Assembly (NCBI RefSeq): GCF_019059575.1
Contig: NW_024883104.1
Span: 1-64,000 of the forward strand
DNA: 64,000 nt
From: Amphibalanus amphitrite
Taxonomy: Eukaryota; Arthropoda; Thecostraca; Balanomorpha; Balanidae
Reading direction: 5' to 3'
The position numbers were made by a program, and so were the translations under genes. Positions 623 to 57,961 of this stretch are shown here, in pieces; positions within the stretch are counted from its first letter, which is position 1, and every line of letters begins with the position of its first letter. The notes below the pieces were generated by a model that saw nothing but the letters and a program-made list of their open reading frames with translations, was not told the origin of the DNA and made no database searches.

Positions 623-960
623 TTAACCCGCCATTTGGCTGGGGGGGGGGGGCGTTAGACTCCCCCTTTTTTTGGCGTGCTATAACTCCGGTTTGGTGGG
701 GCGCAGCCGCACCAACCGACGTCAAGAGACGTCAAGAGCAAGAGCCGGACGTCAAGAGCAAGCTTACCAGAATTGCTTACCAGAGGCAAATATTTTGATG
801 TTTTTTTTTTAAATCAGAGGAATATTTGTGCGGGTTGCTCATTATTCTTGCGGACTAGCAGAGAAGTCCCAAGAGGACCCGCCTTCGGGGGGGCAATCGC
901 TCTTAACGACTTGCAGAGAAGCCACCACAAAGACCCGTCTTGAGGCATCATGTTGATGGT
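623..960 (+). mobile_element. Solo end of a TTAA-flanked, G-hairpin element
   Basis: TTAA at 623-626 is followed by CCCGCCATTTGGCTGG and an imperfect hairpin (about 641-666: long G run, CGTTAGAC, C run), then the 'GCTATAACTCCGG' segment typical of this family. The layout matches the complete TTAA elements at 52830-53752 and 53810-54989. I cannot find a matching right end, so this is probably a truncated copy and its right boundary is arbitrary. Confidence 0.5.
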
Positions 961-2204: not shown

Positions 2205-3490
2205 TAGGTCACCGCACTGGTAACTCTCTATTCTCTAGAGGGGACATGTGCTGACTGCTAGTCAGTAAAGGACACAGCCCAGGTCACGTGAGATCACTGG
2301 ACCCCCAGCCCTGTCACTGGGAGGGGACATGTGCTGACTGCTAGGTCAGTGCGGACACAGTCCAGTCACATGAGGTCCTGGACCACCAGCCTCTGTCATT
2401 GGGAGAGGGACAATGGTGACTGCTAGGTCAGTGGAGGACATAGTCCAGGTCTGTGAGGTCACTGGACCACCAGCCACTGTCACTGGGAGGGGGACATGTG
2501 CTGACCTGCTAGGTCAGTGCAGGACACAGTCCTGTCACATGAGTCCTGGACCACCACCACTGTCACTGGGAGGGGTACATGTGCTGACTGCTATTCAGTG
2601 GAGGACATAGTCCAGGTCAGTGAGGTCACTGGACCACCAGCCTCTGTCACTGGGAGAGGGAACATGGTGACGACTGCTAGGTCAGTGAGGTCACGGTCAG
2701 GTCACGTGAGGTCCTGGACCACCACCACTGTCACTGGGAGGGGGGACATGTGCTGACTGTGCTAGGTCAGTGGAGGACATAGTCCGTCCATGTGAGGTCA
2801 CTGGCCCCACCTCTGTCACTGGGAGAGGGAACATGTGACGACTGCTAGGTCAGTGGAGGTCACAGGTCAGGTCACGTGAGTCCTGGACCACCAGCCACTG
2901 TCACTGGGAGGGTGGACAGGTGGTGACTGCTAGGTTCAGTGCAGTCACAGGTCAGGTCACGTGAGGTCACTGCCACCAGCCTCTGTCACTGGGAGAGGGG
3001 ACCTGTTGCTGACTGGCTAGGTCAGTGGAGGACATAGTCCAGTCATGTGAGGTCACTGGACCACCAGCCTCTGTCACTGGGAGAGGGGACATGTGCTGAC
3101 TGCTAGGTCAGTGGAGGACATAGTCCGGTCATGTGAGGTCACTGGACCACCAGCCTCTGCACTGGGAGAGGGCATGTGCTGACTGCTAGGTCAGTGGAGG
3201 ACATAGTTCAGTCACGTGAGGTCACTGGACCACCAGCCACTGTCATGTGGGAGGGGGGACATGTGCTGACGGCTAGGTCGTGGAGGACATAGTCCAGGTC
3301 ATTTGAGGTCATGGACCACCAGCCCTCTGTCACTGGGAGAGGGGACATGTGCTGACTGCTAGGTCAGTGGAGGACATAGTTCAGTCACGTGAGGTCACTG
3401 GACCACCAGCCACTGTCACTGGGAGGGGGGACATGTCTGACTGCTAGGTCAGTGAGGTCACAGGTCAGGTCGTGAGTTCACCGGATAGAC
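2205..3490. repeat. ~88-bp minisatellite rich in AGGTCA/GGTCAC
   Basis: About 14-15 imperfect head-to-tail copies of an ~88-base unit. Its landmarks, in order, are GGGACATGTGCTGACTGCTA, GGTCAGTGGAGGACATAG, CATGTGAGGTCACTGGACC and ACCAGCCTCTGTCACTGGG. Units differ by small indels, so open frames through the array are not conserved and are not genes. Each unit holds several AGGTCA-type hexamers. Related, more diverged units continue to about 3620. Confidence 0.85.
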
Positions 3491-3654
3491 CACTGTCACT
3501 AGAGATGACAGGTGTGACTGCTAGGTCAGTACAGGTCACAGGTCATGGGAGGTCACCAGCACGTCCACCGCTCCTGCACGGGACAGGTGCTGAGCTGAAT
3601 GCTAACAAGTTCCAAGAGGTCAGAGTTTTTGGTACCTACCTACGTTAACCCGGC

Positions 3655-4030
3655 ATTTGCTGGGGTATTTTCATAACACCACTTGCTGGGGGGGGGGGGG
3701 AGGGGCGTCAGACGCCCCCAGCCCATAACTCGAGAACGGTTTGGTCGCAGCGGGATGGGCGAGGCGGCAATCGAAAGCTCTCAACAAGACGCATATGATG
3801 AGTACTTAAAATTGGTTCTCAGAGGTCAACTTGAGATCAGGTCAGGTCAAAGGTCAAAATAGGGGTTTTCATTTGGGCCCCAGAGACCGAACTACCGACG
3901 CAGCGAGCTCAAACTTTCTGGCTTGTGCCCAAAGATGTACGAATAGTCTCATTGCGTCTAAGCGAATCGGAGCACAGTCAAGGTCAGGTCAGGTCACCAA
4001 AGGTCACAAAAGTCATTTTTTTTCATAACA
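3655..4030 (+). mobile_element. Solo left end of a TTAA-flanked G-hairpin element with AGGTCA cluster
   Basis: TTAA at 3655-3658 is followed by CCCGGCATTTGCTGGGG and a hairpin at about 3688-3719 (G run, GGGGCGTCAGACGCCCC, then CAGC). Next come the 'CCATAACTCGAGAACGG' segment and clustered AGGTCA/GGTCAC motifs between 3835 and 4010. No matching right end was found, so the right boundary is approximate. Confidence 0.55.
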
Positions 4031-23853: not shown

Positions 23854-25127
23854 TTAACCCGCGCCGGGCCGGGGGGTGTTTGAACACCCCCTGCGGTTTT
23901 TCGCAGATATCTCAAAACAGTTGCGTTGGCACACCTGTTTGTGCATCTTTTCCGCACATGTTGTGAAAATTTCAGACCCAGGTCGCCTTAGGTCAGGTCA
24001 CCAGGTCACGCCAAGTGACCTCACCTCAGAAAAAATAAGAATGCTCGTCATAGCTTCACCGACTGATCGATTGCTTTGAAACTTTCAGCGATGGATTAGA
24101 GCAAAATTATCCATAAAATTAACATCTCGGAATTTTGATATCGGTGACCTAAGGTCAGGTCAATTTTGCGGACTCTCCAATCTCCGTTATACTGTCGTAC
24201 TGCGCTGTGGGTAGCGCGTGGCTGGACGGACGGTCCGTGACAATCTATTGATCTGTGGCTGATCTATTAGAGTGTCCGTCCGAGAGCCGTACGACGGCTG
24301 ACAGAGCCTGGGGGTCGCGAACTGGTGTGGTAACCGTTACGCCCACCTGGGACGCCCGAGTCGGTACGGCACTTGCGGTGTCGTAACCGGATCGGCGGGA
24401 ACCAGCAGAACGCTGTTGGACCGGCGGTGAAAGTCGGAACCGAGCACTCGCCCACCAGTGGGGCGTCTGGTCGAGCAGGTCTACCCGCTAAGGCAGCCTG
24501 AGCACGAACCAGTGGCAGGGTCCGATCAATGACCGTGGTCCGACCAGGGTGTCAGCGCAATGGCCAGTCAGAGGCGTCTTTAAGGGCGCAGAAGCCCACC
24601 TCGGTCGACTGTGGCCGGTGCAACCTAGTCAGGTCGTTTGTGTGAATCTCCGTGTTCTTCCTTCGCCTCAGAGTAGCCGCTCTTCTCCAAATGCCCGAGC
24701 CGTTTTCTATGTGTATTTGTCTTGTAGCGAACAGCAGAGTCGAGAAACGAATTGACAATGTCGCCGAAAGCCGCGGTCACATGCTGGCCGTCCCTAGTAC
24801 TACCAATATGCCCGCAGGCGCGGCGAGAGACAAGCTCAACGTATGAGTCACCGTCCGGCTGCCGGGAGAGCCCCTACCGCGACCTTTGTCCACAGTCATG
24901 ACGTCACGACAATGGGCTCCTAAACGTACGGGCAGCGGCCGCCTCAGGGGTGCCGCCGTGACCTTTGCACGACACGTTCTATAGCGTATGGCACAGCGGT
25001 TACTAGGAAGGCTGAGGCCAGCGGCAGGCCGGTTTACAAATAACAAACAAACTTGACGCGCAATTGACAACAGGTAACAGATTGATTAATAAGGCGGTGA
25101 CAATATAAATAAAAATGACAACATGAA

Positions 25128-25178
25128 ATGACAAATCGCATAGATGACAAATCGCATAGATGACAAATCGCATAGATG
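25128..25178. repeat. Three tandem 16-bp units
   Basis: GACAAATCGCATAGAT is repeated three times head to tail. Confidence 0.9.
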
Positions 25179-25814
25179 ATCCCTACAATACCTAAGTCAA
25201 TGGGAGAAAATTGAAAAGCGTCTTTTTTGCACAAACGCTATTCTAGACACTCTCAAACATCGAAATGTAGGTAACATTGACACACTGAACCGGAAAATGG
25301 CAATTGTGACCCCTCGTTATGTCCCCGAGGTCATCTCAGGTCACGAGCAGAATCTAACAGTTTTTCGCTAATAACTTCTGATAAAGGCGTGCTAGAGCGC
25401 TGAAAACGCCTTAGATGTGTTTGGCTCGACGTTGCGGATCGACTGATATGCAACATGACCTTTTCCGGTCAGGTCATGACCTGGACCTGAGGTCAAATTT
25501 TCAAGTTGACCTTTCAAGGTCAAATTATAATTCATTCGACGTGTCTCGACGAGAGGAACACGATGCTGGCAAAAGTAATGCCATAGCTCTTTTTTTAGTC
25601 AAAAGTTATTGCCGAATAAACGTGTTTCGTAAAAACGGCTATTTTTGGAATTTTTGCCATCCAGAGGCTAAACCGTTGACCTGAGGTCAAATCTGAGGAC
25701 ATTAATCAGAAAGGCCTGTAAAAGGGCTATCGAATGCGCTTTTCCGCGGCGCTGTAGATCTATCGGTTCCCGAGATAGCCGTCGGCAGTTCCCAAAATGT
25801 TGAAATAGTCAACC

Positions 25815-27690
25815 GGGGCGTTCCACGACAAATCGACAAATAAAAAATTAAATTTGCACCCTCATATTTTATTCTTCGTTGAAAACTTGTGTAAGGGGTT
25901 GTGATGGGCGGGGAAGCCAGCTGTGGCAAGGATTTTTTTTCTTCGAACAACGGTTTCCGAGATATAGCCTCGGGCAATTCTTGGAGTTCGGGCTGCAGCC
26001 CTATGTTTGGCGGCCTATAACTCAGAAACTATTGGTTTTTTACGATAAAAACTTTATATGGTTCAACTCACAATCAACCAACAAACATTTTGGCTATCTC
26101 GGATTTTCAATTTTTGAAAATTTTGATCACGTGACCTTTTGTCCTATTTTTCGAAGAGTGACCTCGATATTTTCCCCACTGAAAGTTGCAATTTTGTCTG
26201 ATGACGATTAAAGCCTTATCGATTGTCATTCATATGCGATAATAAAAAAAGTGGTTATCGCCCTGCGTTGACCTCAGGTCAGGTCATTTTTATGACCTGT
26301 CCATTATTACGAGCGGGAGCGACAGCGAGATCTCGAGAATAAAGCAAGATAGCGACAAGCGGTAAACGGTAAAGGGTACACACGGATAAGGTCTATAAAT
26401 TTTACTGAGGTCATTTTCAGGTCAGGTCAAAGATGACGTCACAGGAGCTAAAAGGAAGTCAAAATAGCGGCACTATACATATATATGAAGTTTTTCTCGA
26501 ATAAGTTTCAAGGTATCCCAGCTAGGAACAAACTAATAGCACCATCGTGATCCTCTCGTCGATCCGCATCGAAACATATGTATGTTGACCTCGAAAGGTC
26601 GAAAGGTCAAAAGTTGACCTTAGATCACGTGACCTAAGGTCAACTTTTGACCTTTCGACCTTTCGAGGTCAACATACATATGTTTCCATAGGCGCGGGAG
26701 CCGGGGGGGCAGTGGGGTCAGCTTGCCCCCCCCAACTCTGGGGCCGTGGGGGCGGTGCCCCCACAGCTTTGAGACGGAATACCACACTTTTTTGCAAATG
26801 TTTTCTTTTTTTTGTTGAAAAAGCCGAGGGGTGAAAAATAAGTGGCCTAAAACCGGTGAGAAAACTAGATTTGGGGGTACCCTAGGTTAATCTCTATTAT
26901 GGTGTGCCCCCCCAGTCGGAAAGTAGTTCCCGCGCCCCTGTATGTTTCGATGCGGATCGACGAGAGGATCACGATGGTGCTATTAGTTTGTTCCTAGCTG
27001 GGATACCTTGAAAGTTATTCGAGAAAAACTTCATATATATGTAAAGTGCCGCTATTTTGACTTCCTTTTAGCTCCTGTGACGTCATCTTTGACCTGACCT
27101 GAAAATGACCTCAGTAAAAATTATAGACCTTATCCGTGTGTACCCTTTACCGTTTACAGCTTGTCGCTATCTTGCTTTATTCTCGAGATCTCGCTGTCGC
27201 TCCCGCTCGTAATAATGGACAGGTCATAAAAATGACCTGACCTGAGGTCAACGCAGGGCGATAACCACTTTTTTATTATCGCATATGAATGAAAATTGAT
27301 AAGGCTTTAATTGTCATCAGACAAAATTGCAACTTTCAGTGGGGAAAATATCAAGGTCACTCTTCGAAAAATAGGACAAAAGGTCACGTGATCAAAATTT
27401 TCAAAAATTGAAAATCCGAGATAGCCAAAATTTTTGTTGGTTGATTGTGAGTTGAACCATATGAAGTTTTTATCGTAAAAAACCAATAGTTTCTGAGTTA
27501 TAGGCCGCCAAACATAGGGCTGCAGCGCGAACTCCAAGAATTGCCCGAGGCTATATCTCGGAAACCGTTGTTCGAAGAAAAAAATCCTTGCCACAGCTGG
27601 CTTCCCCGCCCATCACAACCCATTAGACCAATTTTAAGCACAAAATAAAATATGAGGGTGCAGGGCACTTGTCGATTTGTCGTGGAACGC
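25815..27690. repeat. Large palindrome centred on CACGTG at 26626-26631
   Basis: The left arm (about 25815-26628) is repeated in inverted form to about 27690, interrupted on the right by a 254-base hAT insertion plus its duplication. The arms meet with essentially no spacer at ACCTTAGATCACGTGACC. Identity is high but not perfect: for example ACAAACATTTTGG at left against CAAAAATTTTTGT at right. The similar open frames at 25879-26211 (plus) and 27307-27594 (minus) are mirror images of each other and are not independent genes. Confidence 0.9.
26687..26940. mobile_element. 254-bp hAT-type MITE inserted beside the palindrome centre
   Basis: The 8-base duplication TATGTTTC lies at 26679-26686 and 26941-26948. 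Ends are CATAGGCGCGGGAGC and GTAGTTCCCGCGCCCCTG. The internal sequence 'GGGGTGAAAAATAAGTGGCC' and 'GGTGAGAAAACTAGATTTGG' is shared with about 61022-61080, and the right end with 17318-17340. Removing it restores an uninterrupted palindrome. Confidence 0.88.
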
Positions 27691-27897
27691 CCCAACCTTT
27701 GGTGACCTCTGGTGACCTGACCTTTGACCTGACCCAAAAAAAGACCGAAGTATTTTCGTCCTTATTTTTGACGTTCTTTCGATTGCCGCTTGCCGCGTGT
27801 CGCTACGTGGCCCAGGAGCCAAGTTATAAGGGGGGGGGGTGTTCAGACACCCCCGGCCCGGCGCGGAATCTCGGAGCACCGGGCCGGCGCGGCTTAA

Positions 27898-34261: not shown

Positions 34262-35539
34262 TTATTTATGTTTTACTGAGAGACGGGTCATGGGTCGGGC
34301 CCGGCTGACCGTCTCCGACTCTGTGTCAGTGGCGGGTTCAGATGGTGGGATGGAGTGTGTGGGTGAGGTGGCAGCGCTGGTCCCCGTCCGCTCGGACAGA
34401 GGCGAGTCCGGCTCCAGTGTCGTGGTTGGTGACGCGTCCGGTGTCTGTGAGGGTGTGGTCTGTGGTCGTGGTGGTGTTCGTGGTGGGGTCGGAGGGCGCT
34501 GGGCACTCCGCACCGGTGGAGGGGGACGCGGCGGTGTCTGTGTGGGTGTGGTCTGTGGTCGTGGTGGTGTTCGTGGTGGGGTCGGAGGGCGCTGGGCGCT
34601 CCGCACCGGTGGAGGGGGAGGTGGCGGCCTCGCCGGCGGAGGCGTGTCCTCGCTTGTTTGTGTTGGGCGCGGAGGGCGTGGGCGCGGCGGCGGGACCTTT
34701 TCGCGGACTGCCGGGAGCGGGGGCCACTCAGCTGGATCCAGTGTGACTGTTGCGTTCGTTGTGCGGCTGTTCTGTTTCATGTGGTGCTCCCTGGCTGCCT
34801 GTCTTGTGGCCTCCCGGTGCCAACGGCTTGCATCTTGGACAACGGGGCACCCCTTATCCCAAGACGGATGAGGCCCTCCGCAACTGAAGCAAAGAGGGGG
34901 AGCCTTACACCCTTCCGTCGGGTGCTCCTCGGAACAGCGTCCGCACCGCGGTTTGCGGCGACGACACGCCCGCGCACTGTGGCCATACATGAGACAGTTT
35001 TTGCAGGGGCGAGGGGCGTAGACCCACGGCGTGATCGGGACTCTCAAGTAGCCGCAATACACGACTTGCGGGAGGTCCCGCCCGGCGAACCATAGTCTTA
35101 TTGTGGGGTTAGGACCCATCTTTTCGATGTTGTTGGACCTGAGCCTTTCGACTTTGATGACGCCTTGCTCCTTGAGTTCGTCGAGGAGCTCAGCGTTGCT
35201 GAGCTCCGTCAGCGCCTCGCTCCTGAGAGCACCTTCCACTGAGTTCAGTCGGTGGGCGAGTTGGGTTGTCACGGGTTGGTCGGTGAACGTCGTCATGTTG
35301 AGGAGGATCTCTGTCTGCTCTTTGTTTTTCGTTTGGATCAGAAGGGACCCGGACTGTACGGCCTTAGCCGAGGTGACGGGGCCGCACAGGCGATCCAAGG
35401 ACCGCTTGATGGTAAACGGGTTGCTGTTTTTGAACGTTAGGTTGTTGGTGGTTTTTTTTACCAGCACGAAAGCTGGGCCGTCAGGGATGGTTTCGGAGGG
35501 GGGCAGTGAGGCCGCCCCCTCATCCTGGTAGAAAGGCAT
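34262..35539 (-). CDS. LINE ORF1: gag-like nucleic-acid-binding protein, 425 aa
   Basis: Structural protein expected to coat the element's RNA. An RRM-like region may span residues ~20-170. It is followed by three closely spaced zinc knuckles: C179-C182-H187-C192, C199-C202-H206-C211 and C217-C220-H224-C231 (CKNCLMYGHSARAC is the first). The C-terminal ~150 residues are proline-rich and contain a ~31-residue unit repeated twice (RSAQRPPTPPRTPPRPQTT), a duplication also visible in DNA at about 34440-34620. The frame ends TAA at 34262-34264. ORF2 begins nine bases downstream of the first stop base, in the same frame. The start is the first ATG of the open frame; the short upstream leader supports it. 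Knuckle-type ORF1 is usual for Jockey, I and R1 elements. Confidence 0.92.
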   Translation of the reverse strand: MPFYQDEGAASLPPSETIPDGPAFVLVKKTTNNLTFKNSNPFTIKRSLDRLCGPVTSAKAVQSGSLLIQTKNKEQTEILLNMTTFTDQPVTTQLAHRLNSVEGALRSEALTELSNAELLDELKEQGVIKVERLRSNNIEKMGPNPTIRLWFAGRDLPQVVYCGYLRVPITPWVYAPRPCKNCLMYGHSARACRRRKPRCGRCSEEHPTEGCKAPPLCFSCGGPHPSWDKGCPVVQDASRWHREATRQAAREHHMKQNSRTTNATVTLDPAEWPPLPAVREKVPPPRPRPPRPTQTSEDTPPPARPPPPPPPVRSAQRPPTPPRTPPRPQTTPTQTPPRPPPPVRSAQRPPTPPRTPPRPQTTPSQTPDASPTTTLEPDSPLSERTGTSAATSPTHSIPPSEPATDTESETVSRARPMTRLSVKHK

Positions 35540-35953
35540 GTTACTCTGGTTAATTTGTGTTTATATCTGGTTATTATTAATAGAAGAATCAATAGCGGGC
35601 AGAACCGCAAATAGCAAAATTAGTCCGATCCGGATGAAAAAATTGGGCAAGAGGGCCGGCGCTGCCGGTAACCTCGGAGGCCCCCAGACAACGACGAAAG
35701 ATCAGAGAGAAAGAGGTGGGGGGTTGTGGGACAGAATGTCCCTAGAAGAGAGGGAGTGGAAGAAAACGAAAACGATCCTAAATTACCTGCCTACTACGAG
35801 CACTTCTATGCGGGGCTTTAGCGCCGCCGGTGTGTCACCCGTCTTAATAAAGACGGGTGCACACAGCCGGGGATCTAAAAGCTGAAAGCAGCCGCTCAAA
35901 ATGCCGTAGCCTATCACCTAGTTGCCGCAGTGGCACGCCCTGCCTAATAGCGG

Positions 35954-37748: not shown

Positions 37749-37812
37749 TATTGGCGAAAAACAAGAGGGGTGGGCGAAATCCGCCCCCCCCCCCTTCCAC
37801 TGCGCGTGTTAA
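37749..37812 (+). mobile_element. Solo right end of a TTAA-flanked G-hairpin element
   Basis: GTTATTGGCGAAAAAC, then GAGGGGTGGGCGAAATCCGC, a C run, CCACTGCGCGTG and TTAA (37809-37812). The arrangement matches the right ends at 39248-39310 and 54925-54993. The left end was not found. Confidence 0.5.
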
Positions 37813-38308: not shown

Positions 38309-39310
38309 TAGGTACACTGTATCGCCATTCTGGACTGATATGGTCTCGAGGAACAGGCCAGAGGTAAGACCCGAGGTACACGCCGAATGGACTGAGACTG
38401 ATTGCCCAAAACGTGTTCTTAGGCTACCAAGACAATATTCGTTGCATACAATATAATTCAATGGTTAAGGTCAAGGTCAGGTCAGGTCAGGTCACCAACA
38501 ACAAAATATAGAAAAGGGCATGTGCGACACATGATTTATGAGTCATTTTATTCATATAATTCAATAGGCACACTCAATTAGTGATATGGACCACCTCTGG
38601 ATGAATTTCAGGTCGAGGTCAGGTCAAGGTCAGGCCAAGTGAGGTCAATTTTTGAAGTTGGTTGTTAAGGCTTAAAAAGGTGTCTATCTTATGCAGTTTT
38701 TCACAGCAATCGAATGATGCTATTTTTGTTTCCGTATACGAGGTCTAGTACTTCCAAAAAAATCATTTTTCGAAAAATTTGTGTGTCGTGACGTTATAAC
38801 TTTTTGAATAACTTCCACATTTTGAACCGATTCTTCTCAAAATTGGTATGTCGGCGCACATAGACCACTTCTCTGCCAAAAATACTGTTTTTTTCGATAC
38901 ACTTAAAGTTTTGGATTTTATAATTATTTTCCCCCAAAAGTCGTTTTTTTTAAATTTGGGGCCAAAACCCAAAAATTTCAAAAAACAGAGATTGTCATTT
39001 GATAGACAAAGTAGAATGACGTACAACTTTTTTGTTACGTCTTGATTCCTTTAGAAATGAAGATGTTAGCGGCGTTTGAAATTTTGCGATTTTTGAGGCG
39101 AAAATGGCGAACATGACGTCACTAAAACGTCATTTTCTCAAAAATTTCCGACGGATTTGCTCAAATTTTCACGGAACGCGTCAAATTGATGTATGATAAG
39201 GTACTGAAAGTTTGACGTTGCTGGCGTAGCGCGTTTAGAAGTTATTGGCGAAAAACGGGAGGGGGGGGGGGCAGATTCTCCCCCCCCCCCCAGCGGGGCG
39301 CGGGCTAACC
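38309..39310. repeat. AGGTCA clusters and right end of a TTAA-type element
   Basis: AGGTC pentamers run at 38467-38495 and 38612-38645. At 39240-39310 the sequence GTTATTGGCGAAAAACGGG, a long G run, a C run and AGCGGGGCGCGGGC followed by TAA repeats the right-end layout of 54925-54993, with TTAA mutated to CTAA. The matching left end was not found. Confidence 0.5.
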
Positions 39311-39999: not shown

Positions 40000-42900
40000 C
40001 TAGAAGTCGTCATCCTCGGCCTGCTTGGGCGGCTCCTCAGCACCGGCTTCGACGCCCTCCCCGGCGTCGGGCGGCGGCTCGGCCCCGTCATCGGGAGGCG
40101 GTGGCGGCGGCTGGTCCGCGGCAGCGTCCTCCGGCGGGGCGGCGTCCGCCGGTGGCGGCTCCTCACCCCCGTCACCTTCCGGCGGCGGCTCGGCCTGCTC
40201 GGCCAGCGGCCCCTCGCTGGGCGCGGCGGCCGGCTCCCGCACCAGGTTCACCTCCTCGTCACTGAACATGGCCGCCTGGGCCAGGTCGTCTGTCGGACAC
40301 AGGCCGGAGGGATATCGATCATTCGAAGTGCTGTTGTAACCTACACCGAAACTTGAACGTGTTGGGATTTGGAAACAACTGGAGTTGACATAAGCAAAAA
40401 CGACTTCCATTCTAGCTGAAGGAGCCAGCATTAGCGACAAGAATATCAAGCTGAAATCATCAAACGAACACACTACGATAGTTACCCTCTCTGAGACCAC
40501 CCAACAATTCCGTTCACTCACCATCGTTGAGATCGAGGCTGGTGTCCGATCCGAGCTCATCGAAGTCGGCCTGCATGGAGCCGAAGACGCGCGCGCCCGG
40601 CCGGCCCTTGGGCTTCTCGCCCTCCTCCGTTGGGGCCGTGAACATCATGTCCTCAGAGGTCTTGGCGATACGACCCAGGCCGATGTCGAGCTCCGAGTTG
40701 TCGGCCTTCTGGATCTCCTCCAGTTGCTGCTTCATCGCCGCCTGTGGAGAAGAGGTAAGAGGTGTTACAAAAGATGCGGATGCATGACTAGGAATGTTTT
40801 CCTTAGCGTAACAGGGGCTAGAAGAAATGTTGCAAAGTAACCGTCAAGTGTTTTGTCGAAAGTCCAACAGTGATATCAAACTAAAACAATCATTGCAGCT
40901 ACGAGTTCCCACCAGGGGCCATTGCCAATTTAGGAGGGTAGTAGCGCCACGCACCTGCCGCTCCTTCATGCGCGTCTCCTCGGTGCGTTCGTAGTCGTCC
41001 ATCTCGGCCTCGAGGAAGGCCAGGCAGCGGAACTTGTCGATGTAGTCGGTGTACAGCTTCTTCAGCTCCTCCTCCAAGCGTTCAAACTCGTCCATGAACG
41101 CAGGCCTGGCAGAGATAACCAGACATTCACTCAGTGCTGAGCATTAGGATGTTACCAGAAGCACCCGCAATGATCGATAATTTCTACAATACCATCACTT
41201 TCAAAGAAAATCACTCCTTTTCCACTGGTTCCCCCCTACAATGTGTCTAAACTCTAACATATATTATATGAGGCCGTACCTGACTTTCTTCAGCGTTGCC
41301 AGCCGTTTCTGGCTTCGGTCCAGATCAGTCTTTTTCTTTTCGATCTTCGCATCCAAATTGGCCTCATCGGTGGCGACGTTGGAGATGAGCTTCTTGTTCT
41401 TCTCGATCTCCTCCTTGATGAAGACGCTCGCCTTCGCCACGCTGGACTCCACGTCATTCAGCTCGATGTTCTTCGAGAGCACTTGCTGTCGCACTTCCTG
41501 CAAAGAGCGGTCACCCACATGACACAAAGCCACCCACCTCTGACCGGGCGGGAGCACGCGCAGCGTCATCTATCGGTAAGTTGCAAGAGCTTCCGTATTT
41601 CAGGTTGGTCCAGCCTGGGTCCAGCTACCGACGAGTAACGGCTAAATCAAAGAAATCCAGGACAAAACACAGCCAGCTTTTCATAAAACCAAGTGTGGAG
41701 CCACAGATAACAGTAGTACTGGATTGGAAACAGAATATTGGCAGTTGCAGTAAGAGGCCGAATGTTTTTATGCGACGGCGCCAAAATGGGATTCTCGCGT
41801 GCTGCTGGGTGGATCATTTGTGTGTTGTGTATTGCAAGAAATCGTCATTTTTGTGTTTTGTCGTTTACATTTAAAATCGAAGCTACCAATGTTACTTTCA
41901 TTTGCTTAAAAATTAAAGTATTTCACTTTTAATTTGATTATTTAGAGGGCACAATGCGTGGTGTTTTCTTTTGAAAACAAAGTGTGGTGCAAAGCCTTAC
42001 ATACATACGTATAGTATAGGTACATCAACAATGGAGGAGGAGAATGAACGGTAAAAAACTGCCGTTCTGGCTACAACCCAACGAATCAAGAGGAACAAAA
42101 GATTAAAACAGGTGATGTCTCACATGCCACCTATTCGCTTTTTTCACCGAAACATCTCTACGGGCTCAGTGGGTTGGCGCCATGGGTCACCGTGACCGGG
42201 CTGAGTGGGATCAGGACTATTCCGCTGTGTGTGAGCTGCATTTCAGAAAGGAAGATTTCGAAGATGATCGGTCATTTCGCACCGGCATGCAGAGACAGCG
42301 CCGTCGGCTCAAGAGCGGCGCAGTCCTGTCAGTATTGACCAGCGTGGATGGATTACGCGATGCCCCCTGTGCACGAGCGGCCAGCGAAACTAGCCATGGC
42401 ATCCGCACGCCACTCACACCAGAAGCAGGTTATGAAGGGCCAGACCGATGCGTTCTTCACGAATGACAATGTCAGCTATCAGGTGGCAACTACAACTGGT
42501 CGAGTGTCCGGCAGTTCCTGGAGAATGAGGCGGTACTCCGAAGTCGAACTAAGGGCCTCAGATGGTGGTCACTGGTCACGTTTCAGCCCCGCCGACGCCT
42601 CCGCCCGAATGGCACCATCACGGCAGGAGTGACAGCAGGATGGTGCTCTTGTCATCCAGGAGCTAGTGGCCGCGGTGGCGAAATCCACTGAAATGGAGGA
42701 CCTGGATGACAGCGCCAAGGCCTCCCTGGGACACAGCTCCGGCGCCTTGGCACGCTCGGCTCTGCGCTCGGCCACCAGGCGTAACAAGTACGGTGCCTCC
42801 GCCCTGCCTCCGCCAGCCTGCTGATCTATCATGGGGCTACGCCGCTGGAGGTACGACTGGAGAAAGACGAGGAAGACATCGACCTCACCGTGAGGATCTG

Positions 42901-47567: not shown

Positions 47568-50500
47568 TCACTCGGCAGCATACACTGGCGCGTGGCAGAG
47601 CGGACAGGTCTGACGCACCGTGATCTCACTCTCGAACGCCTGGTGCTTGCACGTGGGACACTCCCAGGCCTGGTTCGGGTCCATGATGGGCCGGCCGGAT
47701 GCGATGCAGGACGGGAACCGTGTGCCACATGATGGGCAGATCGTTACCCAGTCGGGAATCATCGTCTCGCAGTGAATGCACTCGGCACGGTTGCTCTTGG
47801 AGTCTTTGGGACTGTACTTCATGAATATCTCCATGGCGAGATCCTCATAAGCCTGACGCTCCTCCGGTGTGGCGTCAGGCAGGCTTTCTAGCCGGATGAA
47901 AGCCTTCGAGGTCGTCGAGAACGCACTGTTGGCGCAGCTGGATAGAGCTAGCAGACTGTAGACGTCAGCCAGTGGCAGGATCGTCTCGTAGTCACGCAGA
48001 TGAAGGGCTGTCTTCATAGCAGCATCACGGGCGCCCTCGTACAGCTGTCTCTGAGCCAACAGGAAGAAGTGGTACGCTTCAGCACCTTTCCATGCGTTGT
48101 CTAGCACGCGCAAGTCTCCAAGCGCAGACTGATTTTCTGCCTCCATCAGACCCAGCATCACCGAACTCTTTTGTCCCAGTCCTTTGCCCTTTGCGTTCAT
48201 CATCTTTTCGTTGTGTTGTTGGACCATCAGGGCGGCGAGGACATACATCTTCTTGATCCTCATCGGTTTGGAACCTTTCTTCACCTCGAGGTCAGTGAGC
48301 TGGAAGAGCAGTTTGGCTGCCTCTAGGAAGTAACCAGCCTTCCTGAACAGTTCGATTGCTTGGATCCGCTTGTTCTTCGACAAGAGGTACTGTGCGTACT
48401 TGGCTAGGTACGAGCCCGTGTCCTGGATGTTTGTGGTGCGCGCCAGTTCTACAGCGTAGCGCCAGTTGTTGAGATACATGCACACTTCGACGGCTTCCTT
48501 ATCCTTGTGGCATTTCTGATAGGCCTTGACCGCCGGCTCGCAAAGGCCCACCGACGCAAACATCTTGGCGATTTCGGGCAGGGCCTTGTGATTCTCTGCG
48601 ATGTTCTCCACCAGTTCCTCCAGCTTTTGGTAGTCTTCCATCAGGTAGTAGCACTTGCAGAGCCGTTCTTCGTTCTGGTTTACCTGTTCGTAGTACTTCG
48701 CTGCCTGGTCCCATTTGAGGTTATCGGCGTAGAAGTCTCCGATCTTGTTGAGCGCAATATGCATCAGCATATCATCGCCTCCAACACCCGTTTTCAGGAG
48801 CTGGACCACACGGAACCAGTTGCCCATCTTGCGGTGGAGATCGATGGCGAGGTCGCGTCGATCAGCATCAAGAAACGCTTTCTCGCTGTCCTCAAACTCA
48901 CCGAAGTAGGCTAGTACCTCAGCCTGCTTGATATTCTCTGAGGAGATGTTGTTGAGTCGTTTCGCAAACTGAATGGCAGGATAGTCCTTGCAGCGCACAA
49001 AAGCTGTTTCCGCGACCTCAGTTTCAAGCATTTCCAGTGCTGCCTCGCCGATGAGCCGCCACAGACGAGGATGCGGATTTTCCTCGACGAACTCTTGTGC
49101 CTCTTTCAACCCGGTGTTCTCCAGGATCTCCTTGGTGTCTCTCATGGCCTTGCTTTCGAGCTGCGCCACCAGCTTAGGATGAGGACGATCAGGTCTGATC
49201 AGCACCTCATCAAGCTGAACAGTGGTCACCTCCAGGTCCTTGAACCTACACAGGTATCCAGAGCTGGCCACGGGCTCCTCCGGGTCCAGGTTTCGGAACA
49301 CAAGCATGCGCGTCTTCTCCATCAGTGCGCACATGTCTGCATTATCCTCAGCCCAGATCAAGTCCCACACGTCTTTTCGCTCGAACTTCACCAGCTCACC
49401 AGCACGTTTTCCCTTCTCAGGATCATTTCTTTCGAGATCGAAGAAGTACAGGATGCCAGTCACGTCGATGAGCGAAATGCGCGTCGCATCACAGTTGACC
49501 GCGATTTTCTGTGGACGACACTCAACCGTGTAGCGGTTGCTGAAGATGAGTTGCGGCAGCATGTACACTTGCACAACACCCGACTCCCGTGCGATGAGCA
49601 GCATCGTCTCATGACTTGCGAGACAGGTGATCGGGTCGTTGGTGTGCTTACGGGCGGCTTGACGCTCATAGTGTCGCGAAGTTTCCACTCCCGAGATCAT
49701 GTCGTCTACATGATAGACGCGTTCCTTGGTTTTCTGATCATCTGACTGTGTTGTGGCTATGTCTCTTGCCGAGATACCCTTGGGTGTGTGGTAATGCCAG
49801 ACGAAGAAAGACTCACGGGACGCTGCGAACACGTGAGTTTTGGTCATCGTGACATAGCGTAGCTCCACATCTGTGTAACGCGAGTCGACTGGCGTACCGA
49901 TGGCGTTGCATAGCATCATCCCGAACTTGAGGTCTTGGTCGTCCTTTCGCACCAGAATGCAGCAGTGCTCGTCAGAAGCAGCCATGGCCAGCACAATGGG
50001 CGACGGTTTGTGGTACTTCTCGTTGTTCTTGACGTCCCAGAAGATGACATTGTAGTCTGCTTTGCCAGGCGACAGGTAAGTGTAGACCACTGTGTTCAGG
50101 AAGTAGCACCACTTGTAGTCTGGCCGGATGTTTGCGAAGTAGATGAAAGAATCGACTGCGAGTGAGAGCCTCAGTGAACGGCCTTCCCACGCAACCGAGG
50201 CTAGCTGGCGGCCTGGAACCTTCAGCGTGCGCACATGATCACCGAACGGTGAGAAGAACATGACGGCGTTGCAGTCCTTCTCTCCCGACTGGGCTGCGTT
50301 GATGTTGCCGGCCACAGCTAGCATTGTGCCGTTGTGGTTCCACTGACAGTCGGAGACCGCCATGCCGGCGTCGATGATGACCGGTTTGTCGTCACTTTCG
50401 CTGCGCATGATCTGTACTTTGCCGTCTTCGTAGCAGACGAACAGAGAGGGGCATTCAGGCTCGATGTAGCCGAACCGGCCATTGTACCAGCGCAGGTTGA

Positions 50501-51122
50501 CGATACGCACATAGCCAGTCGAGTTTTGGCCGTGACACATGATAATCATCTTGTTGAGGAACTCGCCCTGGCTATCGTACAAGTGCACCTCACCCGTGCC
50601 GATCGAAAACAGAAGCACATTTCCATCTGGTGACCACTCGACTCCTGTAAAGGACTGGCCCTTCAGCTCCTTGCCCCATATACGGTTGCCATCTACGGAG
50701 CCGACAATGACTGCTCCGTCCTCATAAACGATGCAGATTTTCTCGCCTTCGGAGTTCCACGCCATACCAGTAACCACCGACTTGTTGCGGTTGTTGATCA
50801 TCTCCTCGTACCAAGAGCCTTTGTAGAGCATCCAGACGATAATGAGACCATCCTGGTCACTGGTGGTCAGCTTTTGGTGGATCTGGTTCCAGGTGATCAC
50901 TTGGATTCGACCCGAATGACCCTCCAACGTCTGGTTCATGGACAGGTTGGAGGCTGCAGCTAAGCCCTTGATCTTCTGGTCATCTGGTGCCTCCAGTTTC
51001 AAAACTTTCAACAGGCCATCGTCCCCACCACATGCTATGAAGCCCTCAGCTTTGTTCCATGATATCACGCTGAGCTGGATGTTGTTGGGGATGGCGATCT
51101 TTTTGCTCAAGTATATAAACAT
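47568..51122 (-). CDS. WDR35: WDR35 / IFT121, intraflagellar transport complex A subunit, 1184 aa, intronless CDS
   Basis: IFT-A component that works in retrograde ciliary transport and in moving membrane proteins into cilia. The protein starts MFIYLSKKIAIPNN and ends in a zinc-binding C-terminal region. Residues 1 to ~650 form the WD40 propellers (for example HSGRIQVITWN and VVTGMAWNSEGEKICIVYEDG, read here in part). A TPR-like alpha solenoid covers ~660-1100. The last ~75 residues hold four CxxC-type pairs around GRPIMDPNQAWECPTCKH. Length equals the vertebrate family (~1170-1181). The whole CDS is one exon without frameshift or stop, although animal WDR35 genes usually have many introns. 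A good acceptor (TTGCTTTCAG) ends at 51173 on this strand, 50 bases before the ATG, suggesting a 5'UTR intron. Its neighbour, CLUAP1, lies downstream on the same strand. Confidence 0.97.
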   Translation of the reverse strand: MFIYLSKKIAIPNNIQLSVISWNKAEGFIACGGDDGLLKVLKLEAPDDQKIKGLAAASNLSMNQTLEGHSGRIQVITWNQIHQKLTTSDQDGLIIVWMLYKGSWYEEMINNRNKSVVTGMAWNSEGEKICIVYEDGAVIVGSVDGNRIWGKELKGQSFTGVEWSPDGNVLLFSIGTGEVHLYDSQGEFLNKMIIMCHGQNSTGYVRIVNLRWYNGRFGYIEPECPSLFVCYEDGKVQIMRSESDDKPVIIDAGMAVSDCQWNHNGTMLAVAGNINAAQSGEKDCNAVMFFSPFGDHVRTLKVPGRQLASVAWEGRSLRLSLAVDSFIYFANIRPDYKWCYFLNTVVYTYLSPGKADYNVIFWDVKNNEKYHKPSPIVLAMAASDEHCCILVRKDDQDLKFGMMLCNAIGTPVDSRYTDVELRYVTMTKTHVFAASRESFFVWHYHTPKGISARDIATTQSDDQKTKERVYHVDDMISGVETSRHYERQAARKHTNDPITCLASHETMLLIARESGVVQVYMLPQLIFSNRYTVECRPQKIAVNCDATRISLIDVTGILYFFDLERNDPEKGKRAGELVKFERKDVWDLIWAEDNADMCALMEKTRMLVFRNLDPEEPVASSGYLCRFKDLEVTTVQLDEVLIRPDRPHPKLVAQLESKAMRDTKEILENTGLKEAQEFVEENPHPRLWRLIGEAALEMLETEVAETAFVRCKDYPAIQFAKRLNNISSENIKQAEVLAYFGEFEDSEKAFLDADRRDLAIDLHRKMGNWFRVVQLLKTGVGGDDMLMHIALNKIGDFYADNLKWDQAAKYYEQVNQNEERLCKCYYLMEDYQKLEELVENIAENHKALPEIAKMFASVGLCEPAVKAYQKCHKDKEAVEVCMYLNNWRYAVELARTTNIQDTGSYLAKYAQYLLSKNKRIQAIELFRKAGYFLEAAKLLFQLTDLEVKKGSKPMRIKKMYVLAALMVQQHNEKMMNAKGKGLGQKSSVMLGLMEAENQSALGDLRVLDNAWKGAEAYHFFLLAQRQLYEGARDAAMKTALHLRDYETILPLADVYSLLALSSCANSAFSTTSKAFIRLESLPDATPEERQAYEDLAMEIFMKYSPKDSKSNRAECIHCETMIPDWVTICPSCGTRFPSCIASGRPIMDPNQAWECPTCKHQAFESEITVRQTCPLCHAPVYAAE

Positions 51123-52825: not shown

Positions 52826-52829
52826 TTAA

Positions 52830-53752
52830 CCCGCGAGTTGCTGGGGGGGGGCGTTAAACGCCCCCACTTTTTTCGCCGGGCCATAGCATAAAAACGGCGC
52901 GCCGCAGGCGCGCCAAATTTTATGTACCTGTAGGGAATTGCTTGAAGTTTATTGTGACAAAGTTTCAAAAAAATCGGTCGAAAAATTTTTGAGATATCGA
53001 GGTTTTAGTGACGTCATGATTTCTGAGTTTTCGACCAAAAACGGCATATGTTCAAAAAATCATATAAAATCACAGAATAGACATACAGACATGCCGTAAA
53101 CGCCATTAGACTGCCAATACCATGATCAATCAAATGGTTATCTTCGATTATTGATTATCGTTCCGCATTTTGCATAATCTTGAACTGAATCTTTGGCAAT
53201 TTTTCGTGACTACTTCACGACCATGATACATGAATTTATTAAATTGAACTTTTTGAGCCAAACACGTACACATATGATTAAATTAATGTCACCATCGTGT
53301 TCTACGCCCCAAATTACCTATGAAACATGTGTCACAGGCTGCGAATATCAGTTTTGATTTTCGGGGATATGTGCCTACCCGGTTGACCTGACCTTGACCC
53401 TGACCTATGCTTGACTGACCCCTACATGGAGCTGACACTCTTGTAGGCCTTATAAGATGGATTGTGCACCGTTTTGACAGAGTTTATGGCGATAGGCGCC
53501 CATTGCGAAGTCCTGAAGTCCATGCTACTGAAAGCCCGATTTCAGGTGTTTGACCTGACCTTGACCCGACCTGTGACCTCAAAATTCAACTTTAAAGTAC
53601 TCATCTGAAGCGTCTCGTCGCGCTCTTTTGTTTGCCGCCTCGTGCGTTTCGCTGCGCCCATTGGTTCTCGAGTTATCGGCTGGGGGCGTTAAACGCCCCC
53701 CCCCCCCCCCCCAGCAAACGGTGGGTGGCGAAATACCCCAGCAACTGCCGGG
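52830..53752. mobile_element. 923-bp TTAA-flanked G-hairpin element
   Basis: TTAA at 52826-52829 and 53753-53756. Ends CCCGCGAGTTGCTGGGG and CCCCAGCAACTGCCGGG are inverted. Hairpins lie inside both ends: a G run, CGTTAAACG, then C5 at 52843-52865; G5, CGTTAAACG, then a C run at 53682-53716. The interior has 'TTGACCTGACCTTGACCC' clusters (53383-53410, 53550-53580). No transposase. TTAA plus CCC ends suggest piggyBac-type mobilisation. Confidence 0.8.
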
Positions 53753-53809
53753 TTAACTTATAGAGTTAGAATATCCCCGCAAAAAAAAAATATTAGATGG
53801 CTGTGTTAA

Positions 53810-54989
53810 CCCGCGCCCCACTGGGGTCTGCGTATAACACGCCCTACTGGGGGGGGGGGGGGCTATTCATAGCCCCCCCCCTCCTAACTCCGAAACTACT
53901 GGGCCGATCGTCAAAATTCAAACGGCGTCTGATAGCCCCGGAAAAACTGTCGAGTGAAACCTAATTTCATTGACCTCGAGGTCACCGATGACGTCACAGG
54001 TCAGGTCAAAGTAAAAATTATTAGCATTTTGGCTTCTTCACGTTTTGGGCTCTGGCCGCCGTCTTACAAGTCAGATCAGGCTCATTTTTGGTTCACACAC
54101 TCGTGAACAGATGCTCTAGATACTCTGAGGGTACCAAACTTGTACTTTGATTTTCAGGTCAAGGTCAGGTCATCACAGGTCACGAAAATATATCATCCGT
54201 CGGTCACGTGACACATGTTTTATGGTCCATTTAGGCCAAACATTTCGAATTTGATGTCGTCTGTGTCATTCGAGGTCATTTTGAGTCAAATTTAGCTTAG
54301 GTCAGGTCACTTTCAGGTCAAAAAAGGTCAAATTTGGAAGTTAAAATTTTTCAACAAAAAAGGTGTCTATTCGATGCAGTTTGAGCTCAGGAACACGATG
54401 GTGCTATTTATATTGGCGTACGATGTCAAATTCGTGCTGAAAAATTGATTTGAAAAATTAATAATTGTTAATTTTTTGCAATAATGCGTATAACTTGGCC
54501 ATTTTTGAAGATATTTAGCTAAAACTTGCTAGAGGTAGTCATAATGATGCGTTCTATCACATATATTCCGGTTTTTGCGAAAAGTCAAAAACTTTTTGAA
54601 AAAAATATAAAAGTATAAATTTTGAATTTTATTATATAAAATTTTCGAAATTTTCAAAATTTCGAAAATCCGAGATAGCAGTTTGATAGCGCAGTCTATT
54701 CTGAGTCCTCTCATGCAAAGAAATTGGATCTAGCTTAAAAACTGAGCTCTTGGGAGCGATTGCCGTGGTTCAATGTTTTGCGTCGAAATCGGCCGAACAT
54801 GACGTCACTCTGACGTCATTTCCGGCCGACCTATGGTAGGTACGAAGTTCAAATTTTGACACAAGGTGTCAAATTGATGCAGCCGAAGGTACTGAAAGTT
54901 TGGCGTCGATACGTCAAGCGGTTTGGAAGTTATTGCAGAAAAACGGGAGGGGGGGCTATAAATAGCCCCCCCCCCCAGTGGGGCGCGGG
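53810..54989. mobile_element. 1180-bp TTAA-flanked G-hairpin element
   Basis: TTAA at 53806-53809 and 54990-54993. A perfect 17-base inverted end, CCCGCGCCCCACTGGGG. Hairpins: G run, CTATTCATAG, C run (53849-53880) and G run, CTATAAATAG, C run (54947-54976). AGGTCA clusters run from 53975 to 54330. The motif AACTCCGAAACTACTGGGCC at 53886 is nearly the same as the satellite motif that begins only 100 bases to the right of the element. Confidence 0.85.
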
Positions 54990-54994
54990 TTAAA

Positions 54995-56250
54995 ACTTAA
55001 GTGGTCCAAATCGGTCCAAAACCCCTAAAATCTGTTGCAGACGAGCCCATGCTCCGAAACTACTGGACCGATTTCGATGAAACCTTCACCATTAGACGCG
55101 CCGTGGTCTGAAACGGTGCCGTTTTTGATAATTTTTTGATTGGTCCACCCTAAGTGGTCCAAATCGGTCCAAAACCGCTCAAATCTGTTGCAGACGAGCC
55201 CATACTCCGAAACTACTGGACCGATTTCAATGAAACCTTCACCATTAGACGCGCCGTGGTCTGAAACGGTGCCGTTTTTGATAATTTTTTGATTGGTCCA
55301 CCCTATGTGGTCCAAATCGGTTCAAAACCCCTAAAATTTGTTGCAGACGAGCCCATGCTCCGAAACTACTGGACCGATTTCGATGAAACCTTCACCATTA
55401 GACGCGCCGTGGTCTGAAACGGTGCCGTTTTTGATAATTTTTTGATTGGTCCACCCTAAGTGGTCCAAATCGGTCCAAAACCGCTCAAATCTGTTGCAGA
55501 CGAGCCCATACTCCGAAACTACTGGACCGATTTCAATGAAACCTTCACCATTAGACGCGCCGTGGTCTGAAACGGTGCCGTTTTTGATAATTTTTTGATT
55601 GGTCCACCCTAAGTGGTCCAAATCGGTCCGAAACCCCTAAAATCTGTTGCAGACGAGCCCATGCTCCGAAACTACTCGACCGATTTCAATGAAACCTTCA
55701 CCATTAGACGCGCCGTGGTCTGAAACGGTGCCGTTTTTGATAATTTTTTGATTGGTCCACCCTAAATGGTCCAAATCGGTCCAAAACCGCTAAAATCTGT
55801 TGCAGACGAGCCCATGCTCCGAAACTACTGGACCGATTTCGATGAAACCTTCACCATTAGACGCGCCGTTGTCTTAAACGGTGCCTTTTTTGATAGTTTT
55901 TTTTATTGGTTCACCCTAAGTGGTCCAAATCGGTCCAAAACCCCTAAAATCTGTTGCAGACGAGCCCATGCTCCGAAACTACTGGACCGATTTCGATGAA
56001 ACCTTCACCATTAGACGCGCCGTGGTCTGAAACGGTGCCGTTTTTGATAATTTTTTTATTGGTCCACCCTAAGTGGTCCAAATCGGTCCAAAACCGCTAA
56101 AATCTGTTGCAGACGAGCCCATGCTCCGAAACTACTGGACCGATTTCGATGAAACCTTCACCATTAGACGCGCCGTGGTCTGAAACGGTGCCGTTTTGGA
56201 TAATTTTTTGATTGGTCCACCCTAAGTGGTCCAAATCGGCCCAAAATGCC
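54995..56250 (+). repeat. 153-bp satellite, left arm (8 units)
   Basis: Eight head-to-tail units; GTTGCAGACGAGCCCA starts at 55034, 55187, 55340, 55493, 55646, 55799, 55953 and 56106, a period of 153 (once 154). Each unit contains CTCCGAAACTACTGGACC, GAAACCTTCACCATTAGACG and TTGATTGGTCCACCC. Units alternate slightly (CCCCTAAAAT against CCGCTCAAAT), hinting at a two-unit higher order. The period of 51 codons keeps a minus-strand frame open across units; I do not regard it as coding. Confidence 0.95.
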
Positions 56251-56440
56251 TAAAACCCGTTTGTACTTTGTCAGAGTCCGGATAGATTTCTGCAGCACAG
56301 AGGTGCCCCAAACCCATTGTCATGCATTTTGCTTCCCAAACTAGAGCAAAAATGCATGCTAATTGGGCCTGGGGCACCTCCGCGCTGCGGAAACCAGCTC
56401 ATCGGTTGACTGCATGAAAACGTATTTTTGGGCTGTACTT
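56251..56440. repeat. Hairpin spacer between the two satellite arms
   Basis: The ~190-base centre is not satellite sequence and is itself an imperfect inverted repeat (GAGGTGCCCCAAACCCA against GGGCCTGGGGCACCTCC; AATGCATTTTGC-like against GCAAAAATGCATG). Confidence 0.75.
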
Positions 56441-57961
56441 GAACCGATTTGGACCACTTAGGGTGGACCAATCAAAAAATTATCCAAAAGCGGCACCGGT
56501 ACAGACCACAGCGCGTCGAATGGTGAAGGTTTCATCCAAATCGGTCCAGTAGTTTCGGAGCATGGGCTCGTCTGCAACAGTTTTTAGGGGTTTTGGACCG
56601 ATTTGGACCACTTAGGGTGAACCAATAAAAAATTATCGAAAACGGCACCGTTTTACACCACGTTGCGTCGAATGGTGAAGGTTTCATCGAAATCGGCCCA
56701 GTAGTTTCGGAGCATGGGCTCGTCTGCAACAGATCTTAGCGGTTTTGGACCGATTTGGACCACTTAGGGTGGACCAATCAAAAAATTATCAAAAACGGCA
56801 CCGTTTCAGACCACAGCGCGTCTAATGGTGAAGGTTTCATCGAATTCGGTCGAGTAGTTTCGGAGCATGGGCTCGTCTGCAACAGATTTTAGGGTTTTTG
56901 GACCGATTTGGACCACTTAGGGTGGACCAATAAAAAATTATAAAAAACGGCACCGTTTCAGACCACGGCACGTCTAATGGTGAGGGTTTCATCGAAATCG
57001 GTCCAGTAGTTTCGGAGCATGGGCTTGTCTGCAACAGATTTTAGCGGTTTTGGACCGATTTGGACCACTTAGGGTGGACCAATCAAAAAATTATCAAAAA
57101 CGGCACCATTTCAGACCACGGCGCGTCTAATGGTGAAGGTTTCATCGAAATCGGTCCAGTAGTTTCGGAGCATGGGCTCGTCTGCAAAAGATTTTAGGGG
57201 TTTTAGACCGATTTGGACCACTTAGGGTGGACCAATCAAAAAATTATCAAAAACGGCACCGGTACAGACCACGGCGCGTCTAATGGTGAAGGTTTCATCG
57301 AAATCGGTCGAGTAGTTTCGGAGCATGGGCTCGTCTGCAACAGTTTTTAGGGGTTTTGGACCGATTTGGACCACTTAGGGTAGACCAATCAAAAAATTAT
57401 CAAAAACGGCACCGTTTCAGACCACGGCGCGTCTAATGGTGAAGGTTTCATCGAAATCGGTCCAGTAGTTTCGGAGCATGGGCTCGTCTGCAACAGATTT
57501 GAGCGATTTTGGACCGATTTGGACCACTTAGGGTGGACCAATCAAAAAATTATCAAAAACGGCACCGTTTCAGACCACGGCGCGTCTAATGGTGAAGGTT
57601 TCATTGAAATCGGTCCAGTAGTTTCGGAGCATGGGCTCGTCTGCAACAGATTTTAGGGGTATTGGACCGATTTGGACCACTTAGGGTAGACCAATCAAAA
57701 TATTATTGAAAACGGCACCGTTTCAGACCACGGCGCATCTAATGGTGAAGGTTTTATCGAAATCGGTTCAGTAGTTTTGGAGCATGGGCTCGTCTGCTTT
57801 TAAGGGGGTGTATGGTTCTGGACCATTTTGGTCCGATTGGTCCAGTCAGAGTGAACCAATCGCCAAAAAACGATAAACGGCACCTATATGAGTTCCCTGC
57901 TATTGAATGGTGAAAGAATTATCAAAATCGGTCCAGTAGTTACTGAGCATGGGCTCGTCTG
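56441..57961 (-). repeat. 153-bp satellite, right arm (inverted, 8 units plus diverged edge)
   Basis: The same unit in opposite orientation: GGGCTCGTCTGCAACAG recurs about every 153 bases from 56567 to 57640. The two units from 57787 to 57961 are much more diverged, as expected at an array edge. Together with the left arm this forms a 3-kb inverted structure. Confidence 0.95.

Follow-up and report, generated by a model that had tools for sequence, protein, structure and literature searches.

The window analyzed here, the first 64,000 nucleotides of contig NW_024883104.1 (C1607) of Amphibalanus amphitrite, belongs to an assembly of 807.6 Mb in 2644 contigs. On its reverse strand lie an animal-like WDR35/IFT121 gene (47568–51122), whose best match among solved structures is a WDR35 chain and which forms a single open frame of 1184 aa with no introns, and a non-LTR retrotransposon with reverse transcriptase and RNase H (30506–34255). 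In total, 69 stop-to-stop frames of at least 110 aa were recognized, 49 of which entered a domain scan; the other 20 comprised the retrotransposon and WDR35 frames, which were scanned separately, together with AG-repeat frames and overlapping frames. The 49 frames yielded one THAP domain match (2.4e-9) and a Cluap1 match (4.6e-16). The THAP frame probably lies at 42116–42463 on the forward strand, outside the elements described below, a placement guessed from a C2CH motif at 42.1 kb; a first THAP regular expression gave no match. None of the scanned window frames gave a transposase match inside the window elements, and none of the 116 scored PF13843 matches in the genome falls on this contig. 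Rfam scans at the gathering threshold and tRNA scans returned nothing, and a viral-contig scan for one tip pattern gave 0 matches.

TTAA-flanked elements and solo ends

The initial annotation named ten TTAA-type ends, each carrying a G-run, a short palindrome, and a C-run, and all ten are present. Their exact tips, taken as the first base after TTAA, lie at 627, 3649, 23858, 52830, and 53810 on the forward strand and at 27893, 37808, 39304, 53752, and 54989 on the reverse strand. Read inward from TTAA, every one of them shows the same order of tip unit, G-run, short loop, and C-run. The TTAA flank is found at nine of the ten ends, while 39304 reads TTAG. Eight tips begin with CCC, that at 27893 with GCC, and that at 37808 with CAC; the fourth tip base in the window is G (CCCG).

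Six of the ends delimit three complete elements. Element E1 (52830..53752, forward strand, 923 bp) has TTAA on both sides, at 52826–52829 and 53753–53756. Its short end (52830..52865, forward) consists of a 13-bp tip unit, a G-run at bp 14, the palindrome CGTTAAACG, and a C-run. Its long end (53682..53752, reverse) comprises a tip unit, GGGG, a spacer, a second tip unit (53713–53725, 9/13 identical), a G-run at bp 41, the palindrome CGTTTAACG (read inward), and a C-run. Element E2 (53810..54989, forward strand, 1180 bp), with TTAA at 53806–53809 and 54990–54993, begins with its long end (53810..53881, forward), in which the G-run starts at bp 40, the palindrome is CTATTCATAG, and the second tip unit lies at 53836–53848 (9/13 identical); its short end (54949..54989, reverse) has the G-run at bp 14 and the palindrome CTATTTATAG, again read inward. 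Element B (23858..27893, forward strand, 4036 bp) also has TTAA on both sides and is overlapped by only two frames of at least 110 aa. The short end of B (23858..23891, forward) carries a G-run at bp 14 and the palindrome TGTTTGAACA, centered at bp 24.5, and its long end (27830..27893, reverse) a G-run at bp 40, the palindrome TGTCTGAACA, and a second tip unit at 27855–27867 (11/13 identical).

The remaining four are solo ends, for none of which a partner end was found. Two are of the E1 type, namely a short end at 627..666 (forward), in which the palindrome is partly decayed (CGTTAGACT), and a long end at 3649..3719 (forward; CGTCAGACG), whose second tip unit at 3675–3687 is 8/13 identical and in which the innermost palindrome pair is altered on both sides relative to the E1 long end. 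The other two are short ends on the reverse strand, one at 37767..37808 with the tip CACGCG and the loop CGGATTTCG, and one of the E2 type at 39261..39304 with the loop AGAATCTG.

Several further features accompany these elements. In 8/10 ends (627, 3649, 27893, 37808, 39304, 53752, 53810, and 54989), the first ~25 bp inside the C-run contain TAACTC or TAACTT, and stretches resembling AATAACTC follow the C-run at some ends of other families. The interior of element B contains a 404-bp inverted repeat (25815–26218 and 27300–27693, 93% identical). A 153-bp satellite forms two arrays, at 54998–56255 and 56439–57797, apparently in opposite orientation; the start of the first lies only a few bases from the TTAA on the right of E2, and the satellite sequence at 56692–56712 recurs exactly as 21 bp immediately interior to the E2 long end (53888–53908). 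An 86-bp minisatellite (2237–3541) lies between the solo ends 627 and 3649.

A scan for tips with at most one mismatch to TTAACCCG and a hairpin of at least five G and at least four C within 60 bp recovered 11 of 25 tips in the window, i.e., the ten named ends and a tip at 35549, just outside the frame 34262–35539, which was taken as a chance occurrence. When the sequence was reversed, none of its 35 tips qualified in the same scan, and fifth-order Markov sequences yielded 0.017 each on average (60 runs, maximum 1). Allowing two mismatches added four places, none of which starts with TTAACCC.

E1 belongs to a large family of ~920-bp elements. Genome-wide, an E1-type end pattern has 1557 exact matches and the reversed pattern 0; as a count of E1-type ends this is a lower bound, because short ends fit the pattern only if their G-run reaches 13 or more, and the window E1 itself, with a G-run of 9 at its short end, is not matched there. 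Eight distinct full-length relatives are 92.7–96.8% identical to the window copy, and G-run length varies among the E1-type copies within the matches listed. On contig C18 (88691–111882), E1-type ends recur every ~7.42 kb among the matches listed (88691, 96109, 103531, and 110951), and the MITE there seems to lie within a tandem array of ~7.4-kb units.

End classes and concerted variation

The ten ends fall into two spacing classes, on which the initial annotation was silent. The G-run starts at bp 14–15 in six window ends (short) and at bp 40–41 in four (long), and each of the three complete elements has one end of either class. For each of the four long ends, the internal sequence most similar to the first 13 bp sits 26 or 27 bp inward, beside the G-run of the palindrome (8, 9, 9, and 11 of 13 positions identical). 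Thus, with its second tip unit beside the G-run, the long end looks like a short end plus an added unit. The G-run varies from 5 to 17 bp over the window ends, and the palindrome center from bp 24.5 to 31 on short ends. In 198 kb around the transposases described below, 38 of 375 tips with at most one mismatch to TTAACCC carried a hairpin, compared with 3/448 in the reversed control; the G-run was positioned at bp 14–16 in 17 of these tips, at bp 41–43 in 15, and elsewhere in 6, placing 32/38 in the two classes. The offset between short and long ends was 26–28 bp in 11/11 families.

Of 44 possible loop pairs in the window, 33 are formed, compared with a mean of 13.0 after shuffling, and 0 of 200,000 shuffles reach this number. 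With each type represented by a single end (five ends), 16/22 loop pairs are formed (5 of 200,000 shuffles), and the four solo ends alone form 10/16 (1,043 of 200,000). Pairing is complete at 52830, 53752, and 3649, lacks only the central pair at 23858, 53810, and 54989, and is worse at 627 (2/4), 37808 (3/4), 27893 (3/5), and 39304 (1/4 as centered). The claim that the palindrome differs between copies while staying paired was confirmed in a set of 17 distinct 9-nt loops, with the 10-nt loops (E2, B, L020, and L027) and those of odd length set aside: 47/68 cells are paired, against a column-shuffle mean of 25.8 (0 of 20,000). Extra Watson–Crick pair types were not significant in this set (3,539 of 20,000), and the covariation claim therefore rests on the paired cells, the concerted changes, and the end-to-end agreement.

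The concerted changes were quantified in 11 families set apart by motif and palindrome, each represented by one complete element from the window or from the transposase loci L009–L028. Elements were picked by tip, G-run, and C-run, with loop pairing not a criterion; five second copies (at L018 and L021, the E1 copy in L024, and the two elements of L028) and all solo ends were left out. Each element offers three instances of a 6-bp motif before the G-run and four of a 3-bp half-site. Motif identity within elements is 0.783, compared with 0.346 for shuffled labels, and half-site identity is 0.894, compared with 0.442, both with 0 of 20,000 shuffles; as the families are related, these counts and that for the paired cells overstate the independence of the evidence. 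The two direct-repeat units within a single long end agree in their motif as well, and the half-sites agree between both ends of an element. By contrast, the 90 bp inside the palindrome show no significant within-element agreement (mean local score 14.9 vs. 14.1; 670 of 5,000 shuffles). E2 is related to the element at L015 (67.7% over E2 490–1180 and 77.4% over 44–202), yet its motif differs at 3/3 places (CACT or TACT vs. CGTA) and its half-site at 4/4 (CTA vs. CCG). This comparison and the flank control lean less on the independence of the families.

The initial annotation attributed the paired changes to either the fold or a symmetric protein site. In the former case, the DNA fold itself would be selected, the G-run, palindrome, and C-run extruding as a hairpin or cruciform for excision or synapsis. 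At every one of the ten window ends, the loop is indeed bounded by the two runs, and the outer loop pairs covary, pairs 1 to 3 being formed in 15, 14, and 13 of the 17 loops. However, the innermost pair is formed in only 5/17, the G-run and C-run are of unequal length (e.g., 17 and 5), and a fold does not require half-sites to agree from end to end. Moreover, the tip-side motif lies outside the hairpin and changes in step with the half-sites; thus, the covariation is best read as that of a symmetric protein site, and selection on the fold is unlikely. Less probable again is an origin of the symmetry in mutation or conversion without selection, by template switching in quasi-palindromes or by conversion between inverted ends. 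Quasi-palindrome correction is a known mutational process, and G-run length does vary between copies, but the agreement is confined to motif and half-sites. Because the sequences just inside the palindrome are not significantly more alike within elements than between them, general homogenization of both ends is an unlikely cause, and such processes sit poorly with a motif that agrees also between direct-repeat units of one long end. That the sites differ between families and match within elements suggests that the enzymes mobilizing them form a correspondingly matched set.

Transposases in the same genome

A PF13843 profile search of the genome returned 116 scored matches (best 8.9e-88), of which 20 places from the upper part of the list, with differing scores, were examined over 9.9 kb each (L009–L028). 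Two contain complete coding elements with hairpin-bearing short and long ends: the element at L026 (3447–7413) has a transposase frame of 667 aa and that at L028 (2519–6481) one of 674 aa, in a total length of 3.96–3.97 kb. The transposase of L024 probably belongs to a 6.57-kb element with hairpin-type ends, an assignment made because its tips match as one family; an E1 copy is nested inside this element. In all three cases, the transposase reads from the short end to the long end, and the tips start with CCCT. At L028, a 940-bp MITE with the same ends adjoins the coding element, the two sharing one TTAA, and they are a non-coding/coding pair of one family. At L020 (3407–7312), a hairpin-ended element encloses a coding piggyBac element of 2673 bp whose tips are of a different type.

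In local BLAST comparisons, these three transposases form a group, with L024 61–62% identical to the other two and L026 99% identical to L028, compared with 20–26% identity to the other 17. Among solved structures, T. ni piggyBac is nearest to both L028 and L024: the L028 protein scores 267.5 bits against T. ni piggyBac 6x67, including the zinc-binding, cysteine-rich C-terminal domain (CRD), and 108.2 bits against piggyBat, without the CRD, and the L024 protein scores 250.1 vs. 96.8 bits. The CRD of L028 aligns with that of 6x67 through C-C-C-C-C-H-C-C, and L024 has the same spacing; the C-terminus of L026 is unlike that of L028 and looks out of frame. Conversely, L009 (111.1 vs. 77.3 bits) and L025 (89 vs. 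50.5 bits) are nearer to piggyBat, and the Cys/His spacing of their C-termini differs from that of L024 and L028.

At the other 17 loci, own ends or tips were assigned at 11, none of which has a G-run, and no own end pair was assignable at six (L012, L016, L018, L021, L022, and L027). Both ends were found for seven families without G-runs. Three of these, L009, L023, and L025, have a strong left-end palindrome centered at bp 24.5, reached by 0, 1, and 2 of 300 shuffles, respectively, and on their right ends no palindrome or a weaker one elsewhere. The pattern of a palindrome on the left end only is not clean for L009, because its right end has a weaker palindrome at bp 41 (10 of 300 shuffles). 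In the other four families, no significant palindrome was found near bp 25; in one of them (L013/14/15/19), the best palindrome, reached by 1 to 5 of 300 shuffles, lies at bp 61.5.

These findings bear out the suggestion of piggyBac-type mobilization, as transposase-coding elements with the same end layout occur in the same genome. As for an autonomous copy with the same ends, its counterpart exists at the level of layout (L026, L028, and, by inference, L024), whereas no gene for a transposase between tips of the E1, E2, or B type was found at the 20 of 116 scored places covered. The initial annotation had also considered a Kolobok transposase. Membership in Kolobok or another TTAA-targeting superfamily would fit the TTAA target duplications, and no transposase of the window families themselves was found in these places; nevertheless, it is quite improbable, since Kolobok elements are described as ending in RR/AG (PMC6004289, available text), compared with CCC at 8/10 window tips, and the like-ended elements code for DDE_Tnp_1_7, with L026 and L028 as direct cases and L024 by assignment. 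Finally, the idea that TTAACCC and low-complexity G/C runs coincide by chance can be dismissed: the window does hold 26 G-run/loop/C-run places, most of them off TTAA tips (3 to 19 in 20 third-order Markov sequences), but the reversed and Markov controls reject it as the cause of the hairpin ends (0/35 reversed tips and 0.017 per Markov run vs. 11/25; reversed 3/448 vs. 38/375 in 198 kb; reversed pattern 0 vs. 1557 genome-wide).

Proposed piggyBac-type ends and known systems

The window elements are most probably, with a probability of roughly 80%, non-autonomous (MITE-like) members of the piggyBac superfamily whose unequal ends carry piggyBac-style transposase sites. The short end consists of one tip unit of 13–15 bp, which ends in a family-specific motif, and the palindrome behind it; in the long end, a spacer separates the tip unit from its second copy, 26–28 bp further in, and the same palindrome follows. 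By analogy with T. ni piggyBac, a transposase dimer may read the tip unit with its core domains, while the paired CRDs would sit on the palindrome; a further dimer could occupy the second unit of the long end, as has been suggested for T. ni piggyBac. The window copies would have spread by trans-mobilization, and each family presumably has or had its own transposase.

Several observations weigh against the piggyBac reading, among them the negative search of the 20 places for coding elements with E1-, E2-, or B-type tips, the relatedness of the families, and the nonsignificant count of extra pair types. The distance from tip to palindrome varies with G-run length, which is a poor fit to a rigid complex unless run length drifts after insertion, and such drift is a guess. 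The window tips read CCCG, whereas the superfamily has been defined by a 12–19-bp TIR with a CC[C/T]T tip (PMC2872659, available text). In addition, the 4/7 other piggyBac families mentioned above lack a significant palindrome near bp 25.

A broader proposal is more tentative and, on present evidence, somewhat doubtful. It holds that at least 11 piggyBac-type families reside together with one end geometry, each marked by its own two-part "address" of three motif copies and four half-sites, framed by G/C runs, and that CRD class predicts end layout, elements whose transposase has a T. ni-type CRD carrying palindromes on both ends and those with a Pgm/piggyBat-type CRD carrying one on the left end or lacking it altogether. 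In this genome, the two end plans do go with two CRD classes, in small numbers (two hairpin families with transposases and seven others). If the proposal is true, inspection of the ends could reveal the specificity of a transposase and perhaps permit its prediction, and the families would constitute natural, mutually orthogonal piggyBac systems. Within one genome, related families differ in step in motif and palindrome, with as many as seven places changed in an element, and the spacing stays fixed; thus, they offer a natural mutational series for determining which transposase residues read which bases. Orthogonal gene-delivery systems might also be derived from these families.

T. ni piggyBac has CCC tips. 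Like the window elements, its LE35/RE63 ends combine a TTAA target with one short and one long end and a palindromic internal repeat on both, and one palindrome is displaced by ~28 bp, compared with an offset of 26–27 bp in the window. According to the available text of PMC7351741, a CRD dimer binds the palindrome at LE bp 17–33, and the RE has undergone an insertion and a duplication, so that RE bp 34–63 are almost identical to LE bp 7–35. The distance between a repeat and the inner end of its TIR is 3 nt on one side and 31 nt on the other, and subterminal or inner inverted repeats have been described for piggyBac-like elements more widely (PMC12324416, available text). The initial remark that such hairpins are unusual for piggyBac is therefore not supported, as palindromes are known in T. 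ni piggyBac (PMC7351741), piggyBat (PMC11707139), and piggyBac-like elements (PMC12324416). The window elements differ from T. ni piggyBac in their G/C-run arms, in having G as the fourth tip base, in the co-residence of at least 11 families with different palindromes and motifs, and in a palindrome center that in most copies lies further from the tip than the ~bp 25 of T. ni piggyBac in the text available.

piggyBat from Myotis lucifugus shares the superfamily and the order of motif and palindrome, which are read by core and CRD; unlike the window elements, it is described as having imperfect palindromes on its left end and none on its right, and a different CRD fold (PMC11707139, available text). 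It is nearer to other families in this genome, i.e., to L009 and L025 by protein and to L009, L023, and L025 by left-end palindrome. The coral CMITEs, which are piggyBac-related MITEs, likewise have a TTAA target and occur as non-autonomous copies beside coding piggyBac-like elements; in the available text, they are described with a conserved internal region and tandem arrays and with no palindromic end sites of this design (PMC2872659).

In the available text of PMC7351741, the asymmetric end organization of piggyBac is termed enigmatic, and that of PMC8086355 states that no straightforward correlation is known between CRD fold and end organization, citing PLE-wu against one. No description of piggyBac ends with G/C-run arms was found in the titles, abstract openings, and passages searched, in which subscription papers are thinly covered. 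Although piggyBac already shows the overall layout of the ends, three features look new: arms made of G and C runs, the large number of co-resident site codes, and an association between end plan and CRD class.
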